The position numbers were made by a program, and so were the translations under genes. A stretch of 64,000 nt of DNA from an uncultured Litoreibacter sp. (GTDB lineage Bacteria; Pseudomonadota; Alphaproteobacteria; Rhodobacterales; Rhodobacteraceae). Where the stretch lies: NCBI GenBank assembly GCA_947494435.1, contig CANLUY010000001.1, positions 1,726,001-1,790,000 of the forward strand. The letters are read 5' to 3'. The notes beneath the pieces were generated by a model. That model did no database searches. It was not told the DNA's origin and worked only from the letters and a program-made list of their open reading frames with translations. Below are positions 39,823 to 47,224 of this stretch, one piece after another (the first letter of the stretch is position 1; each line of letters starts with the position of its first letter).

Positions 39823-40545
39823 ATGTTGATCGAGGTTCTGGGCCTTCCGGGGTCCGGCAAAACCACTTTGATCAAACAGGTCTTGCCCCAGCTTCGTAGC
39901 TTGGGGCGCCGCTCCCGACGTGCCGATAAGCTGGCGGGATTGCCTTGCGAGGCCCCTGAAGCGCTGCGCTACCTCAGCCGCAGTCCGGACCGTGCCGCGC
40001 TTTACCGCGCTCAAGCCTTCCGGCAGGCCTATCCCGCCTTGATGGATCATATCGAGCGGCGCTTGACATCCGATCTGACAGAGCAGTTTTTGTTCACCCT
40101 TATTGGGTCGCATTACCAAGCGTATACAGAACATGCGGACAATTTCGATTTCGTCTTTCTGGATGAAGGCTTCGCGCATCGCGGCGTGTCAGCCCATCTC
40201 GATCAGGAGGACGCCGTTTTTGCCGATTTCATGAAATTGGTTCCGGTGCCGGACCTCGTTATCCATCTCAGCCCGCCGCCGCGTGTCGCCTTCCGGCGCG
40301 CGATCAGCCGTCACGAAGGGCAGGAAGAAACAAAGGTCCGCGTGACCGAAAAGCTCGGCAATCACGCGGTCTTCCGTCACCGCCAGCGTCTTTTGGAAGC
40401 CAGCCTAGACATCTTGTCAAAGCGCGGTGCGAAAGTCGTCTCTTTCAACACCGCCGACCCGATGGAGGTCTGTCGCGATATCATCGTGACCGAAGTTCAA
40501 GCGGCACACTCCTCGCAAGAAACGTCCCCGCAAGCGGCTGAATGA
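39823..40545 (+). CDS. P-loop NTPase, kinase-like
   Basis: 240 residues. The P-loop GLPGSGKTTLIKQ begins at residue 7, so the nucleotide site is at the very N-terminus as in small-molecule kinases. FDFVFLDEGFAHRG contains a Walker B-like acidic pair (DE), and VIHLSPPPRVAFRRAISRHEG supplies the basic segment of thymidylate or nucleoside kinase-like folds. No family could be fixed. It follows the methyltransferase by four bases and ends before a terminator, facing the sat-cysC gene. Phosphorylation of a sugar, nucleoside or polysaccharide precursor is a reasonable guess, no more. Confidence 0.65.
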   Translation: MLIEVLGLPGSGKTTLIKQVLPQLRSLGRRSRRADKLAGLPCEAPEALRYLSRSPDRAALYRAQAFRQAYPALMDHIERRLTSDLTEQFLFTLIGSHYQAYTEHADNFDFVFLDEGFAHRGVSAHLDQEDAVFADFMKLVPVPDLVIHLSPPPRVAFRRAISRHEGQEETKVRVTEKLGNHAVFRHRQRLLEASLDILSKRGAKVVSFNTADPMEVCRDIIVTEVQAAHSSQETSPQAAE

Positions 40546-40566
40546 CCTCAATGAAACCACATAAAA

Positions 40567-40600
40567 AAGCGGCTCCCGTCGGGGCCGCTTCTTGCATTTT
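40567..40600 (+). terminator. Rho-independent terminator
   Basis: The arms AAGCGGC and GCCGCTT, extended inward by CCC/GGG around GTC, are followed by CTTGCATTTT. It lies 21 bases after the P-loop gene and before the convergent sat-cysC gene. Confidence 0.65.
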
Positions 40601-40630
40601 ACGGGGTTAATTTTCCCTAAAGAAAATTAG

Positions 40631-40681
40631 GAAAATCATTTTTTATCAAAGGGTAAGGCGAATCCCCCGCGCGCGGGGGAT
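40631..40681 (-). repeat. Dispersed hairpin repeat, copy 1
   Basis: The head is the 20-bp palindrome ATCCCCCGCGCGCGGGGGAT (40662-40681). Reading on the minus strand, an AT-rich tail follows with TTACCC and TTGAT (TGAT at offset 16-19 from the head). It lies six bases beyond the sat-cysC stop. Copies 2 and 3 share the layout. It may also serve as terminator for sat-cysC. Confidence 0.55.
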
Positions 40682-40687
40682 CGCGCT

Positions 40688-42757
40688 TTATGCCTTGATC
40701 AGCCCCATTGATTCCAGCTTCAAGATCACCTGATGAGCGCAGTTATCCACCTCGACATTCTCTGTCTCGACCGACAATTCAGGATTTTCAGGCACATCAT
40801 ACGGATCAGAAATCCCAGTAAATTCCTTGATCTTCCCCTCACGCGCCAGCTTATACAGCCCCTTCCGATCACGACGCTCACATTCCTCGATAGAGGTCGC
40901 GACGTGGACTTCAATAAACGCCCCAAAGCTTTCTATATCTTCCCTGACCGCCCGACGCGTCGTCGCATAAGGCGCAATCGGCGCGCAAATCGCGATCCCT
41001 CCATTCTTGGTGATCTCCGAGGCGACATACCCGATCCGGCGGATGTTAAGGTCGCGGTGCTCCTTGCTAAAGCCAAGCTCGGACGACAGATTCTTACGGA
41101 CGATATCCCCGTCCAAAAGCGTCACAGGACGTCCACCCATCTCCATCAACTTCACCATCAAAGCGTTCGCAATCGTCGACTTGCCCGAACCTGAGAAGCC
41201 AGTGAAGAACACGGTGAACCCTTGGTTCGCCCGCGGCGGCCGCGACTTACGCAGCTCTTCCACAACAGCCGGGAAGGAGAACCATTCAGGGATATCCAGC
41301 CCCTCAGCCAACCGGCGCCGCAGCTCCGTGCCTGAGATATTGAGGACCGTCACCTCGTCCTTATCTTTGATCTCATCCGCAGGCTCATATTGGGCACGGT
41401 CCTGCACATAAACCATGTGCTTAAAGTCGACCATTTCGATGCCCATTTCTTCCTGATGCTCGCGGAACAAGTCTTGTGCATCATAAGGCCCGTAAAAATC
41501 CTCACCGGCGGAGTTTGTACCCGGTCCTGCGTGATCGCGTCCCACAATGAAATGCGTGCAACCGTGGTTCTTGCGGATAAGCCCGTGCCAGACCGCTTCG
41601 CGCGGGCCTGCCATCCGCATCGCGAGGTTCAGCAAAGACATGGATGTGGTCGAAGCCGGATATTGATCCAGAACAGCCTCATAACACCGGACGCGCGTGA
41701 AGTGATCAATGTCGCCGGGCTTCGTCATACCGACAACCGGATGGATCAACAGGTTGGCCTGCGCCTCTTTGGCCGCACGGAACGTCAGTTCCTGATGGGC
41801 GCGGTGCAGCGGGTTGCGGGTTTGAAACGCCACGACCTTGCGCCAGCCCAGCTTGCGGAAATAGGCGCGCAATTCGTTCGGCGTATCGCGCCGCGCGCGG
41901 AAGTCATAATGCACTGGCTGCTGAATGCCCGTTACCGGACCACCCAGATAAATCTTGCCCGCCTGATTGTGCAGATAATTTACCGCCGGATGCGCGCTGT
42001 CATCGGCCCCGAAAACCTGCGCCGCTTCATGCGACTTGTTCGGCTCCCAACGATCGGTGACCGTCATCGTCCCCAGAATAACGCCTTCCTGATCGCGCAA
42101 GGCAATGTCCTGACCCAACTCAAGAGAGGCCGCAAATTCTTCAGAGACATCCAAGGTGATCGGCATCGGCCACAGCTCACCCGTGCTCAGGCGCATCGTA
42201 TCAACGACAGAGTTGTAGTCCTCTTCTGACAAGAACCCTTTCAGCGGGTTGAAGCCACCGTTCATCAGCAACTCAAGGTCGCAAATCTGGCGCGGCGTCA
42301 GATCGTGGGAGGTCAGCTCAGCCGCCTCCACCTTCATTTTCTGCGCACTGTCATAGGACACGTAAAGCTCGGGGATGGGGGCGAGGTTGTTTTGCATGGA
42401 TTTAATCCTGTCACTGAAATGGGTGAGCGCGGTTGAGGCGCCTGTAAGCTCGGAATGCAACGCGTCGTATTCCGCAAATTTTCTGGCCAAGAAGGCATTG
42501 ATGAGGCGGTTCTTTTCAGACGCGCCCAAGGCTGTAAGTGAATAGGCGAACCGTTGACGCCTATCAGGCCCGGCGCGGTCGGTGATCTCGACCAAGCCAG
42601 CCTCTGCCGCGCGCTTTAACAATCCGTTGAGACGTCCAAGGGAGATCCCTAACGCCTCAGCCGTCGCGCGCTGCGCGGCATCCGGCGACAACTCCAGTTG
42701 CCGCAAGAGGCGGAAGGTCAGGTCTTCTTCCTCTTGGATATGGCGATCTTGTTTCAC
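40688..42757 (-). CDS. EPS-type MarR domain fused to bifunctional sulfate adenylyltransferase / adenylylsulfate kinase
   Basis: 689 residues from a GTG. Residues 1-115 form a winged-helix domain of the EPS-associated MarR type: EEEDLTFRLLRQLELSPDAAQRATAEALGISLGRLNGLLKRAAEAGLVEITD, wing, then FLARKFAEYDALHSEL helix. From Met121 the enzyme starts exactly where stand-alone forms do (569 residues): ATP sulfurylase with QTRNPLHRAHQEL (about 314) and GRDHAGPG (about 407), and APS kinase with P-loop GFSGSGKST (about 520). It makes PAPS from sulfate. No stop codon separates the parts. An AGGA eight bases before Met121 could permit internal initiation, so either a true fusion or two products from one frame is possible. 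Operator-like repeats lie upstream. Confidence 0.9.
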   Translation of the reverse strand: MKQDRHIQEEEDLTFRLLRQLELSPDAAQRATAEALGISLGRLNGLLKRAAEAGLVEITDRAGPDRRQRFAYSLTALGASEKNRLINAFLARKFAEYDALHSELTGASTALTHFSDRIKSMQNNLAPIPELYVSYDSAQKMKVEAAELTSHDLTPRQICDLELLMNGGFNPLKGFLSEEDYNSVVDTMRLSTGELWPMPITLDVSEEFAASLELGQDIALRDQEGVILGTMTVTDRWEPNKSHEAAQVFGADDSAHPAVNYLHNQAGKIYLGGPVTGIQQPVHYDFRARRDTPNELRAYFRKLGWRKVVAFQTRNPLHRAHQELTFRAAKEAQANLLIHPVVGMTKPGDIDHFTRVRCYEAVLDQYPASTTSMSLLNLAMRMAGPREAVWHGLIRKNHGCTHFIVGRDHAGPGTNSAGEDFYGPYDAQDLFREHQEEMGIEMVDFKHMVYVQDRAQYEPADEIKDKDEVTVLNISGTELRRRLAEGLDIPEWFSFPAVVEELRKSRPPRANQGFTVFFTGFSGSGKSTIANALMVKLMEMGGRPVTLLDGDIVRKNLSSELGFSKEHRDLNIRRIGYVASEITKNGGIAICAPIAPYATTRRAVREDIESFGAFIEVHVATSIEECERRDRKGLYKLAREGKIKEFTGISDPYDVPENPELSVETENVEVDNCAHQVILKLESMGLIKA

Positions 42758-42774
42758 AACAACGACTCAATAAG

Positions 42775-42834
42775 TGTTCACTCATGAACAAATAGTAAGC
42801 GCGAGTGCGTTCAGCAATGAACAATCTTCATTGC
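42775..42834 (-). promoter_or_regulatory. Two operator-like dyads upstream of the MarR-sat-cysC gene
   Basis: Minus strand: TGTTCATGAGTGAACA at 42775-42790 and TGTTCATTGCTGAACG at 42808-42823. They share TGTTCAT-N3-TGAAC, lie 33 bases apart (about three helical turns), and the nearer one ends 17 bases before the GTG. A further dyad (GCAATGAA / TTCATTGC, 42814-42834) overlaps the second. Such paired 16-bp dyads are what a dimeric MarR-type regulator binds; autoregulation by the fused domain is inferred. Confidence 0.65.
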
Positions 42835-42878
42835 GGGTGGAAACAGTGTGTTTTGAGTGACAGCCGAAGCCGCCGACC

Positions 42879-43823
42879 TTACCCTTCGTCAGCGGCGAGG
42901 AACCGTTCGGCTTCAAGCGCGGCCATGCACCCCATTCCGGCAGACGTCACGGCTTGGCGGTACTTGTGGTCTGTCAGGTCGCCAGCGGCAAAAACCCCGG
43001 GAATAGACGTTTCCGTACTGTCGGGCTTGGTCACAACATAGCCGCCCATATGGGTCTCAAGCGTGTCCGCGACCAATTCGTTGGCTGGCGCGTGACCGAT
43101 CGCGACAAAGACACCCTTACAAGGGATCTCTGTGATCTCATCCGTTTTTACATTTCGGACCTTTACGCCCTCAACTGAATTGGGGTTCTCGGTTCCAATG
43201 ACCTCTTCCAACTGATGAAACCAAAGTGGCTCGATCTTCGGGTTCTTGTGCAGACGATCTTGCAAAATCGCCTCGGCGCGCAACTCGTCGCGGCGGTGGA
43301 TCAGCGTAACCTTAGAGGCAAAGTTGGTCAAAAACAGCGCCTCTTCCACGGCCGTGTTGCCACCGCCGATCACGACAATCTCTTGACCGCGATAGAAAAA
43401 CCCGTCGCAGGTCGCACAGGCCGATACGCCAAACCCTTTGAACTTCTCTTCAGATGGCAAGCCCAACCACTTGGCTCGCGCGCCGGTTGCCAAGATAATA
43501 GCGTCGGCGACATATTCCGTGCCGCTGTCAGACTGGCACACGAAAGGCCGCTTTGAGAAATCAACGCTGGAGATTATGTCGCCGATGATTTCGCATCCCA
43601 TCGCTTTCGCATGGGCTTCCATCCGGACCATCAAATCAGGGCCTTGCACCTCAGTATCACCGGGCCAGTTCTCAACTTCCGTGGTCGTGGTCAACTGTCC
43701 GCCGGGCTCAATCCCTTGCACCAAGATCGGGTCGAGCATCGCGCGGGACGCATAGACTCCCGCCGTATAGCCCGCAGGGCCAGAGCCAATGATCAGAACT
43801 TTGGTTTTGCGTGTCTCGGCCAT
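42879..43823 (-). CDS. trxB: Thioredoxin-disulfide reductase
   Basis: 314 residues. It transfers electrons from NADPH through FAD to thioredoxin. The FAD motif VLIIGSGPAGYTAGVYASRA starts the protein; the redox pair is CATC in GVSACATCDGFFYRGQ (about 138); the NADPH motif is VVIGGGNTAVEEALFLTNFA; the final FAD contact is GVFAAGDLTDHKYRQAVTSAGMG. Length is usual (about 315-320). It reads toward the sat-cysC gene, 121 bases away, and diverges from lrp, an arrangement repeated in Rhodobacterales. Reduced thioredoxin also serves PAPS reductase, but that link is only contextual. Confidence 0.95.
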   Translation of the reverse strand: MAETRKTKVLIIGSGPAGYTAGVYASRAMLDPILVQGIEPGGQLTTTTEVENWPGDTEVQGPDLMVRMEAHAKAMGCEIIGDIISSVDFSKRPFVCQSDSGTEYVADAIILATGARAKWLGLPSEEKFKGFGVSACATCDGFFYRGQEIVVIGGGNTAVEEALFLTNFASKVTLIHRRDELRAEAILQDRLHKNPKIEPLWFHQLEEVIGTENPNSVEGVKVRNVKTDEITEIPCKGVFVAIGHAPANELVADTLETHMGGYVVTKPDSTETSIPGVFAAGDLTDHKYRQAVTSAGMGCMAALEAERFLAADEG

Positions 43824-44498: not shown

Positions 44499-45296
44499 TT
44501 AGCCACCAGCGCGCAGTGCTGTGACCTCAAATGCGGTTAGACGTTGGATTAATTGAGGACCAAACCCATCCAAAGAACGCACATGCGGAAACAACCGCAA
44601 CAGTGAATAAAGCAGTTCGTCATCCAGCAGCGTTTCCGCAAAGGGGCCAGGATGGAAGCATTCCAATTCGACGCCGTTGGCCGTGATCGTCGCTTGACGG
44701 TCAAACGCAATGTTGAATAGCGAAACCGTAGAAATGGGCGTGATCTCAACCACCTGCACGCCATCTACAAAGGCGCGGACCGGCGCAAAAGCCAGATCTA
44801 CACCGAACAGCTTTTTGCAAGCCGCGTGGCGCGTCAGAAGATGAGACCGGGGCCCCAGCAACAAATCAGAGGCGGGTTTAGATAACCCGAATGTGTCGCT
44901 GGTGACCCGGAATAGTTTGCTGCGATCAGAGGCGTGCACCTCTTGCGGCGTCATATCGTAAGAACCAACCCATTGGAGGGGAAGGGGACCGTACTCACTC
45001 GTCAAAATGTCCATGCCGGGCACAAGATCTTCGACCGCAACCGCACCTTGCGTCGTCGTGACAAGCGTGCCGCGCGCCATATGGGCGCAGGCCGCCTCGA
45101 TCACGGGAATGCTGGGGGCAATAATCGTGTCAAAGTCTGCGTGGCCGGAAGAGGTCAGCCAAGCAACATTATAGGGGCGTGACATCGCGTGCGGCCGGGG
45201 CAGAGGACCCCGCAGAGGTGCGCGCGTTAGGGAGGGAGGGACAGAAACGTCGGAGGGCATCTGCATAGCGGCTCTCGCCGTGGTGGAGTAGGTCAT
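44499..45296 (-). CDS. Hint_2 domain protein lacking the nucleophilic cysteine
   Basis: 265 residues; AAAGGGA precedes the ATG. The central 170 residues fit the Hint_2 (Hedgehog/intein) domain of Rhodobacterales: MARGTLVTTTQGAVAVEDLVPGMDILTSEYGPLPLQWVGSY, then LLLGPRSHLLTRHAACKKLFG with the block-B histidine, and ECFHPGPFAETLLDDELLY at the end. At the first position, normally a cysteine four residues before the glycine of the G-T pair, there is His (AHMARGT), so the autoproteolytic N-S acyl shift should be lost. A proline-rich N-terminus of about 45 residues precedes it. No RTX repeats are attached, unlike the large Hint protein at 12 kb. It diverges from the sulfotransferase gene. Confidence 0.8.
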   Translation of the reverse strand: MTYSTTARAAMQMPSDVSVPPSLTRAPLRGPLPRPHAMSRPYNVAWLTSSGHADFDTIIAPSIPVIEAACAHMARGTLVTTTQGAVAVEDLVPGMDILTSEYGPLPLQWVGSYDMTPQEVHASDRSKLFRVTSDTFGLSKPASDLLLGPRSHLLTRHAACKKLFGVDLAFAPVRAFVDGVQVVEITPISTVSLFNIAFDRQATITANGVELECFHPGPFAETLLDDELLYSLLRLFPHVRSLDGFGPQLIQRLTAFEVTALRAGG

Positions 45297-45565: not shown

Positions 45566-47224
45566 GTGTTGACCAATGATCAGATCAAAAAGCTATACGC
45601 AAAAGCGCAGAGCGCCCAGAACGCGGGCAAACTCGACGATGCCGCGAAGCTCTATGCGCGTATCCTGAAAGCCAACCCGAATGTTGCTGAGGCGCAGTTC
45701 AACATGGGGCGCATTGCCTCGCGAAAAGGCGCTGTGCCTCAAGCCGCTCAGCATTTCGAAGCCGCACTAAAGCTCAAACCCAGCCAGCCGGAGATTTGGT
45801 TGGCTTATCTCGACATGGCATCGCATCACCCCAATATCGACAACCTAGACAAGCTTCTGACGCGTGCGCAACCCGTGACAAATGACTTACCGCAGCACAG
45901 CTTCTTCAAAGGTCTGGTCGCTGCACGTCGCGGTCAACCTGACGCTCGCTTATTGATCGAGCAGGCCATCGCAACGGGCCTCACCTCCGCTCGCGCGCAG
46001 ACGGAACTGGGCATTCTGCACGCTGCCGATGGCGATACCGAGGCCGCGATCGCCGCGTATGAAGCCGCACTAGAGATCAAACCGCAATACGATTTCGCCC
46101 TATCTCGTTTGGCCGAAATGTATCGCAACATCGGCCAAACCGACAAAGCGCTGGATGCCGCGCGCGCCGCCATCAAAGCCGCCCCACATGTCTATCCACA
46201 TTACTACCTCTATGCGTCACTGCGAAAGCTCGCGGCGGATGATCCCATGATCAGCCAGATGCAAACCATGCTGCAGCGTGCTAAGAAGGGTGCCCCTGCG
46301 CTCAATCAACTTGCGCACGCGCTGGGCAAAGCGATGGAAGATACTGGCCAAACCGATCAGGTGTTCCGCTATCTCGACATCGCGAACGGGATCACGTCCA
46401 AAGCCTACCCCTACGATCCCGCCCAAGACGCACAAACCGCACAGGACACGGCTGACAGGTATCTGTCGCTTCCTGCACTCACCACAACGCCCAGCGATGC
46501 AAGCAAACCCACACCGATCTTCGTCACTGGCCTGCCGCGTTCGGGCACCACACTGGTAGAGCAGATTATCTCTTCCCATTCAGATGTCGCCGGCGGCGGT
46601 GAACTCGGCCTGTTCGGCCCAATCCTGCAAACGGCGCTAACGGAGGCAAGCAACCCAATCAGCCTCGAAAAGGCCGTGCCGCAAGTGGGGGAGGCCTACC
46701 GCGCGAAGCTCGCCACGCGGTTCCCGGGCGCGCGATACGTCACCGACAAGTCCATCTCCAGCTACGCCTCCATCGGGTTCATCCGCTATGCCGTGCCGGA
46801 TGCCCGCATCATCGTTGTCCGCCGTGATCCTGCCGACAATGCCCTGTCGATCTACAAAAACATGTTCCGCGACGGCACGCATCGCTACGCCACAGACCTG
46901 CGCACTATCGCAAAGTTCATGAGGTTGTTTGAACGCCAACTTGCCTTTTGGCAGGAGCAAACCCCCGACGCGTTCTCTGAAATCAAATATGAAGAGCTGA
47001 TCGCCGATCCGGAACCGCAGTCTCGCGCGTTGATCGCAAATGTAGGCCTTGAGTGGCAGGACGCCTGCCTGTCTTTCTACGACAATGCCCGCCGCGTGGA
47101 CACACTCTCAACAACCCAAGTGCGTCAGCCGATCTATGCGTCATCCGTCGGGGCATGGAAACGGTATGAGGCCAATATGGCCCCTTTTCTGGAAGAATAT
47201 CAGAAAGACACGCAACCAACCTGA
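45566..47224 (+). CDS. TPR-sulfotransferase
   Basis: 552 residues. The start is GTG or the adjacent TTG at 45566/45569; there is no nearby ATG. The N-terminal half (about 1-250) holds about six tetratricopeptide repeats (YAKAQSAQNAGKLDDAAKLYARILKANP; LGILHAADGDTEAAIAAYEAALEIKP). The C-terminal half is a PAPS-dependent sulfotransferase: 5'-phosphosulfate loop PIFVTGLPRSGTTLVEQIIS at about 310, and 3'-phosphate motif ARIIVVRRDPADNALSIYKNMF at about 410. It would transfer sulfate from PAPS to a hydroxyl of a protein or glycan. The donor is made by the sat-cysC enzyme nearby. A strong terminator follows. The acceptor is unknown. Confidence 0.9.
   Translation: MLTNDQIKKLYAKAQSAQNAGKLDDAAKLYARILKANPNVAEAQFNMGRIASRKGAVPQAAQHFEAALKLKPSQPEIWLAYLDMASHHPNIDNLDKLLTRAQPVTNDLPQHSFFKGLVAARRGQPDARLLIEQAIATGLTSARAQTELGILHAADGDTEAAIAAYEAALEIKPQYDFALSRLAEMYRNIGQTDKALDAARAAIKAAPHVYPHYYLYASLRKLAADDPMISQMQTMLQRAKKGAPALNQLAHALGKAMEDTGQTDQVFRYLDIANGITSKAYPYDPAQDAQTAQDTADRYLSLPALTTTPSDASKPTPIFVTGLPRSGTTLVEQIISSHSDVAGGGELGLFGPILQTALTEASNPISLEKAVPQVGEAYRAKLATRFPGARYVTDKSISSYASIGFIRYAVPDARIIVVRRDPADNALSIYKNMFRDGTHRYATDLRTIAKFMRLFERQLAFWQEQTPDAFSEIKYEELIADPEPQSRALIANVGLEWQDACLSFYDNARRVDTLSTTQVRQPIYASSVGAWKRYEANMAPFLEEYQKDTQPT

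Follow-up and report, generated by a model that had tools for sequence, protein, structure and literature searches.

The window analysed here comprises 64,000 nucleotides of a contig from an uncultured Litoreibacter sp. Its minus strand contains a single open frame in which a MarR-type winged-helix domain is joined to a bifunctional ATP sulfurylase/APS kinase (sat/cysC). The features of the locus, numbered from the first letter of the window, are as follows.

39823-40545, plus strand: P-loop-like protein with no Pfam family above cut-off, convergent with the fused gene
40688..42757, minus strand: fused gene for MarR winged helix, ATP sulfurylase and APS kinase, 689 aa, GTG start (long product)
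40769..41224, minus strand: APS kinase domain, residues 512-663
41246..42373, minus strand: ATP sulfurylase part (PUA_2 and ATP-sulfurylase), residues 129-504
42395..42397, minus strand: putative internal start codon, Met121, of a predicted 569-aa short product (40688-42397)
42398..42442, minus strand: linker, residues 106-120, variable in sequence
42406..42409, minus strand: putative internal Shine-Dalgarno sequence AGGA (AGG of Arg117 and the first base of codon 118)
42443..42730, minus strand: MarR-type winged-helix domain, residues 10-105
42776..42789, palindrome without strand: proximal operator candidate GTTCA-N4-TGAAC, 18 nt 5′ of the long start codon
42809..42822, palindrome without strand: second operator candidate, GTTCA-N4-TGAAC, upstream of the proximal one at a distance of 33 nt
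42879..43823, minus strand: pyridine nucleotide-disulphide oxidoreductase, trxB-like
44499-45296, minus strand: Hint-domain protein (PF13403), for which no relation to the fused gene was seen
45566-47224, plus strand: TPR-repeat sulfotransferase

The stop-free stretch of the fused frame extends over 692 codons in the genome, and 689 residues are read from the GTG at 42757 with no internal stop. An in-frame TGA is located four codons 5′ of this GTG with no start codon in between, leaving the GTG as the sole possible upstream start. Residues 119 to 688 matched the NCBIfam model for bifunctional sat/cysC (NF004040) at 1038.4 bits (cut-off 669) and covered model positions 4 to 571 of 572, confirming the full-length enzyme proposed in the first-pass annotation. 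The Pfam models PUA_2, ATP-sulfurylase and APS_kinase all scored far above their cut-offs. Two motifs which we take to be catalytic, QTRNPLHRAH in the ATP sulfurylase part and the P-loop GxSGSGKST in the kinase, were invariant in an alignment of 52 of the 57 fused proteins described below, five with long or unclear starts having been left out. Unlike its solved sat/cysC relatives (1i2d, 1m8p, 2gks and 3cr8), where the best-matching stretch of each chain listed began at residue 128 or later, the protein possesses the MarR part as an extra. A search of positions 40400-43100 for Rfam elements gave no match.

The N-terminus reads as a MarR-type winged helix. Pfam HTH_24 was matched with 24.3 bits (cut-off 21.9), while MarR_2 was missed (23.1 against 27), and there was a weak match to one solved MarR protein, CouR (E 0.0062). 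The domain had been called an EPS-associated MarR domain; the winged helix stood, and the family name is good only as that of the nearest relative, as residues 10 to 105 scored 75.2 bits with TIGR04176 (MarR_EPS), under the curated cut-off of 88. This cut-off was reached by 18 of the 57 intact fused frames and missed by 39. The fusion is therefore easily overlooked, since the enzyme model covers residues 119 to 688 with a very high score and the regulator model falls under its cut-off.

A search of 290 Rhodobacteraceae genomes with TIGR04176, in which fusion was not required, produced 57 matches in frames of at least 690 codons, 44 higher-scoring standalone matches and one further fused-type domain (G032) in a frame cut by a contig end. 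A conserved stop separating the domains, named in the first-pass annotation as a refutation, was not seen in this search. Named genomes were scanned with a profile of the fused N-terminus and the best 80 loci were kept, all 80 of which had an open fused frame. The absence of stops from the collected sets of 57 and 80 loci is partly by construction, as they were chosen as open frames, but the TIGR04176 search is free of that bias. The recurrence of the same open frame in 57/290 genomes and 80/80 named public loci rules out a sequencing error or a chance frame; the MarR-enzyme fusion is real, and the domain combination that the first-pass annotation had wished to see checked in databases recurs in this family. 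The best 80 named loci included Phaeobacter, Leisingera, Shimia, Thalassovita, Octadecabacter and Roseovarius, and the nearest among them was from an uncultured Litoreibacter (79% identity over the matched part). One fused locus, L187, comes from a public record named Nocardioides marinus, an actinobacterium, and is probably mislabelled. After removal of 12 duplicates, the two sets together contained 125 distinct fused genes.

Enzymes without the regulator were also common. A whole-protein search of 295 Rhodobacteraceae genomes gave matches in 279; among the matches listed, at least 57 began at query residue 13 or earlier and the others began mostly near residues 107 to 123, corresponding to the enzyme without MarR. 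The same-genus relative G171 is of this unfused type. For comparison, 73 unfused homologues (33 and a further 40), which are full-length enzymes lacking the MarR part, were picked by hand from the listed matches, with high-scoring and odd ones included, and are not a random sample; upstream DNA was short in two of them (L085, 454 nt; L077, 1335 nt). An apparent stop within the match of genome G237 proved to be the end of the enzyme (locus L080) rather than an interdomain stop. Separate adjacent regulator and enzyme genes were not found among 90 loci (57 fused, 33 unfused), which contained one case of a broken MarR part (L089). Six plasmid records of Roseobacter and Sulfitobacter (H1-H6) contain unfused copies of the enzyme gene that are 89 to 91% identical, and the MarR part was reached by none of the 15 matches listed for roseobacter plasmids. 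Beyond the family, 385 genomes of the class Alphaproteobacteria, at least five of them Rhodobacteraceae, were searched with the fused-N-terminus profile, with up to 10 first-look candidates scored per genome. Full-length fused matches were detected in two genomes, both Rhodobacteraceae, and none was detected outside this family, where all matches were situated in frames of 343 codons or fewer.

In a tree of MarR domains (57 fused and 50 standalone, with few alignment columns), the fused domains, that of the window included, formed one side of a branch with an SH-aLRT support of 100, which would fit a single fusion event. The fused domains differ from the standalone TIGR04176 regulators in this separate grouping, in the consensus of the helix-turn-helix region and in the replacement of the standalone C-terminal helix by a linker leading into the enzyme. 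A tree of the enzyme part for the 90 loci had fused and unfused genes mixed, with 20 label changes and 8 of 87 inner branches well supported. Two histories would account for this mixing: one origin with subsequent losses, or exchange at a trxB-flanked locus common to both types. A trxB-like gene, the name trxB for the oxidoreductase at 42879..43823 being our assumption, lay upstream on the same strand, at most 1.5 kb away, at 33 of the 57 fused and 20 of the 33 unfused loci. Median dN/dS, calculated only for pairs more than 90% identical, was 0.087 over 27 pairs for the MarR part, which is thus under purifying selection, and 0.038 over 29 pairs for the enzyme. As fused-type domains occur in frames that stay open through to the enzyme despite a linker whose sequence was variable in an alignment of 28 of the 57 fused proteins, it seems that the long chain is maintained as a unit.

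The junction of the two parts was examined for signs of an internal start. Codon 117, encoding arginine, was AGG in 56 and CGG in one of the 57 fused frames. The next base was A in all 57, giving AGGA in 56, although residue 118 varied between Thr, Ser, Asn, Met and Ile; AGGA preceded 7 of the 866 other in-frame ATGs. Codon 121 was ATG in 55 frames and GTG in two, with L040 read one codon earlier. The 80 named loci had AGG at codon 117 throughout, AGGA in 79 (L195 has AGGG) and an ATG (72), GTG (7) or TTG (1) at codon 121. Over the 125 distinct genes, Arg117 was AGG in 124, compared to at most 7.3% at 43 other conserved arginine columns, and codon 121 was a start codon in all 125 (ATG 117, GTG 7, TTG 1). 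All eight replacements of ATG were therefore other start codons, compared to 2 of 46 being GTG or TTG at other conserved methionine columns. These counts come from genes that share a tree, and the control consisted of other columns of the same sequences.

Rather than marking a ribosome-binding site, the AGG at 117 might act as a rare-codon pause between the domains that aids folding, with the long fused protein as the sole product. AGG is rare in fused genes (28 of the 3,040 other arginine codons of the 57 frames), and translation might conceivably pause where the two domains meet. A pause, however, would need neither the fixed A behind a codon whose neighbouring amino acid varies nor a start codon at position 121 whose replacements are solely GTG and TTG, and we regard this explanation as very unlikely. 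The prediction that long and short products arise from one gene by way of an AGGA-preceded ATG, put forward in the first-pass annotation, is strongly supported by these patterns. A crude duplex-energy measure of ribosome-binding sites gave means of -2.0 for the long start, -4.3 for the internal start and -2.4 for the starts of unfused genes; from the stronger internal site, we infer that the short form would be more abundant than the long form. AGGA was present before the start in 3 of 73 unfused genes, two in the first 33 (one being the broken L089) and one in the further 40.

The intergenic region upstream of the long start contains two copies of the palindrome GTTCA-N4-TGAAC, the only ones in the window, where 0.10 would be expected by chance over its whole length. 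The palindrome was exact in 55 of the 57 fused loci (the exceptions being L006, with a single mismatch, and L009, which runs into a contig edge), in 78 of the 80 named fused loci (L175 is truncated, and L202 differs by a single mismatch) and in 122 of the 125 distinct fused genes. Its arms were invariant in the 55 exact loci and the 4-nt spacer was variable. In contrast, exact copies were absent upstream of all 73 unfused homologues, namely 0 of 33 examined over 0.45 to 3.2 kb and 0 of 40 examined over about 1.2 kb, with one-mismatch copies in 4/33 and 1/40, respectively. The palindrome thus does not belong to the enzyme gene in itself, and this candidate operator goes with the MarR domain. 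A comparison of independent pairs for co-change of palindrome and fusion was too weak to add to this (4 usable pairs, median p 0.125). Six of the 33 unfused loci (L062, L063, L064, L075, L076 and L077) and none of the 57 fused loci had the element CTAGA(C/G)TTT followed by CCA at 71 to 92 nt 5′ of the enzyme start, which may be an alternative promoter for genes that lack the MarR module.

The gap between the palindrome and the first start was most commonly 19 nt (38 of 122 fused genes). Second sites with up to one mismatch were detected 25 times within 120 nt above the first over the 122 genes, of which 20 were at 29 to 35 nt and 13 at 32 to 33 nt; 0.5 would be expected in all. At so short a distance from the start codon, a palindrome should coincide in part with the promoter or lie downstream of it, an arrangement that fits repression. 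A consensus scan of positions 42300-42900 detected no sigma-70-type promoter.

The same palindrome also occurred with standalone relatives of the MarR part. Exact copies were located within 300 nt upstream of the domain in 17 of the 44 standalone TIGR04176 genes of Rhodobacteraceae, one-mismatch copies in six of them, and none exactly but three with one mismatch in seven standalone relatives elsewhere in the class. Some of the 27 of 44 genes that lack the exact palindrome have GCTCA-N4-TGAGC instead, a symmetric variant present for example at L227, L236 and L237, suggesting that operator and regulator may change together within the family.

It could be argued that only the 569-residue enzyme matters and that the upstream part is a leftover or an idle translated leader. 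The unfused homologues do have a full-length enzyme without a MarR part, and the ribosome-binding site of the long start is the weaker of the two. An idle leader would, however, be difficult to reconcile with the low dN/dS of the MarR part, with the 57 genomes in which it is retained in an open frame with the enzyme and with a palindrome that is kept where the domain is present and missing where it is not; this explanation appears very improbable. Locus L089, with a broken and shortened MarR part, has its nearest palindrome copy with two mismatches and retains the AGGA and a 569-codon enzyme frame. By these predicted features, L089 is a natural counter-case to the fused genes.

The number of palindromes in whole genomes, counted in exact forms only, was used as a guide to the putative targets of the fused regulator. 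Seven exact copies were present in the genome of the window (two for a control pattern), and two of these were at the fused gene. Of the remaining five, four were internal to coding frames and one separated a thioesterase-like gene from another MarR gene. The intergenic copy has the form GGTTCATTTTTGAACC (G000:C1:1156335-1156348; L032 position 1501) and lies next to a standalone MarR gene, where it might allow cross-talk or might be an operator unrelated to the fused gene. In 30 of the 57 fused genomes, the extended 16-mer TGTTCA-N4-TGAACA was found at 16 places in 14 genomes, 13 of which were at the promoter of the fused gene, with none for the control. Both counts suggest that the likely regulon is chiefly the fused gene itself.

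Control of other genes by the MarR domain, such as exopolysaccharide genes or sulfotransferase genes, with PAPS supply as the signal and autoregulation as a secondary effect, would be an alternative role for the protein. Polysaccharide genes were indeed detected beside five of eight standalone TIGR04176 loci (one or two neighbouring frames per locus), and the window contains a sulfotransferase gene 2.8 kb from the fused gene. The placement of the exact sites, with most copies in the genome of the window either at the fused gene or inside coding frames and 13 of 16 places for the 16-mer at fused-gene promoters, argues against this alternative and we consider it unlikely. A Pfam scan of eight neighbours of the fused gene gave the trxB-like gene, an Lrp/AsnC-like gene, a methyltransferase and others, and the region is not an exopolysaccharide locus. 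The link to exopolysaccharide drawn in the first-pass annotation thus applies to standalone relatives and not to the fused gene. The DNA binding proposed there gains indirect support, as the palindrome follows the MarR domain; on exact sites, however, the likely target would be the promoter of the fused gene, not exopolysaccharide genes.

By way of background, cysteine, methionine and sulfated molecules all have sulfate activation as their entry step, for which the genome of the window appears to rely on a single gene. One match to the PAPS synthetase enzyme was detected in the genome of the window, and CysD had no match in this genome. It contains one PAPS_reduct protein (L258 1387-2187, minus strand) with CC and CxxC pairs, which presumably indicate the APS-reductase type. 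If this protein is an APS reductase, APS would lead to cysteine and the kinase half of the fused enzyme would make PAPS for sulfation. The enzyme part is predicted to turn sulfate and ATP into PAPS, and the TPR-repeat sulfotransferase at 45566-47224, the only PF00685 match above cut-off in the genome, may be a user of this PAPS.

Genes with two in-frame starts that give long and short isoforms include those for ClpA, CheA and IF2. The fused gene resembles these in having a putative internal ribosome-binding site and start within one frame, and differs in that its short product would lack a domain regulating transcription of that very gene. It may also share properties with the trigger enzymes, which double as DNA-binding regulators, those of Escherichia coli given in PMC8249747 being PutA, NadR, BirA, PepA and PyrH. 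According to this source, PutA represses in the absence of proline and has the putA-putP spacer as its sole binding site. At the sequence level, the fused gene similarly combines an enzyme and a DNA-binding-type domain in one polypeptide. The palindrome before it is a candidate operator. Unlike the trigger enzymes listed, the fused protein is a PAPS synthetase with an N-terminal MarR-like part and a conserved internal start for regulator-free enzyme, both catalysis and DNA binding being predicted. The fused gene would work like a trigger enzyme; in the strict sense, a member of that class would also have to bind DNA and place its gene control under a metabolite. No description of a MarR-sat/cysC fusion was found in one open-access library, as judged by titles and abstracts, and the main text of a proteogenomics study of Ruegeria pomeroyi (PMC3305630) does not name the enzyme.

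These comparisons establish conservation of the fusion, of a putative internal ribosome-binding site and start codon and of a MarR-linked candidate operator that has few other exact targets. On this basis, and leaving ligand gating aside, we think it probable that a single gene encodes both an autorepressor and an enzyme by means of two starts, of which the first would yield a long repressor-enzyme and the second the short enzyme. Transcription would start just 5′ of, or within, the GTTCA-N4-TGAAC palindrome. Ribosomes initiating at the first codon would produce the 689-residue long form, and those initiating at the AGGA-preceded Met121 would produce the 569-residue enzyme, equivalent to a normal PAPS synthetase. 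Through the long form, the enzyme oligomer would acquire two MarR domains, and this pair would bind the palindrome and block transcription of its own gene. Much like a trigger enzyme, the protein would be an autorepressor with a single target, whose synthesis is set by the amount of assembled enzyme, and the internal start would supply many subunits that carry no DNA-binding domain. The steps we infer from the conserved elements are production of both forms, recognition of the palindrome by the MarR domain, repression through this binding and joint assembly of long and short chains.

How far such a circuit would respond to its own chemistry is a matter for more cautious proposals. Occupancy by ATP, sulfate, APS or PAPS might, at a guess, alter DNA binding; sensing of APS, PAPS or sulfate had been suggested in the first-pass annotation. 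Autorepression may equally require no ligand, the protein being a plain homeostat that reads its own amount and not its catalytic state. The sequence data call for no ligand, and a repressor and an enzyme in one chain suffice to hold a level; the trigger enzyme PutA, on the other hand, responds to its substrate (PMC8249747). We place ligand-free autorepression, which is a variant of the two-start account and overlaps with it in confidence, a little short of an even chance. A more elaborate and rather doubtful version of the two-start account is a self-titrating gene, in which the catalytic state of a mixed long/short oligomer (free, or loaded with APS or PAPS) gates the hold of the MarR domains on their own operator, so that the gene reads its own flux and the ratio of the two starts sets the gain. 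Such self-titration would concern the only ATP sulfurylase gene detected in the genome of the window.

A built-in repressor, an operator of its own and a conserved internal start would make a compact single-gene control circuit. The fused gene is carried by many marine bacteria of the roseobacter type and by roughly one in five of the Rhodobacteraceae genera sampled (57/290 genomes). The N-terminal extensions of familiar enzymes can conceal regulators. The finding opens to direct study the questions of how the amount or the state of an enzyme feeds back on its own transcription and of why two isoforms would be kept across a whole group.
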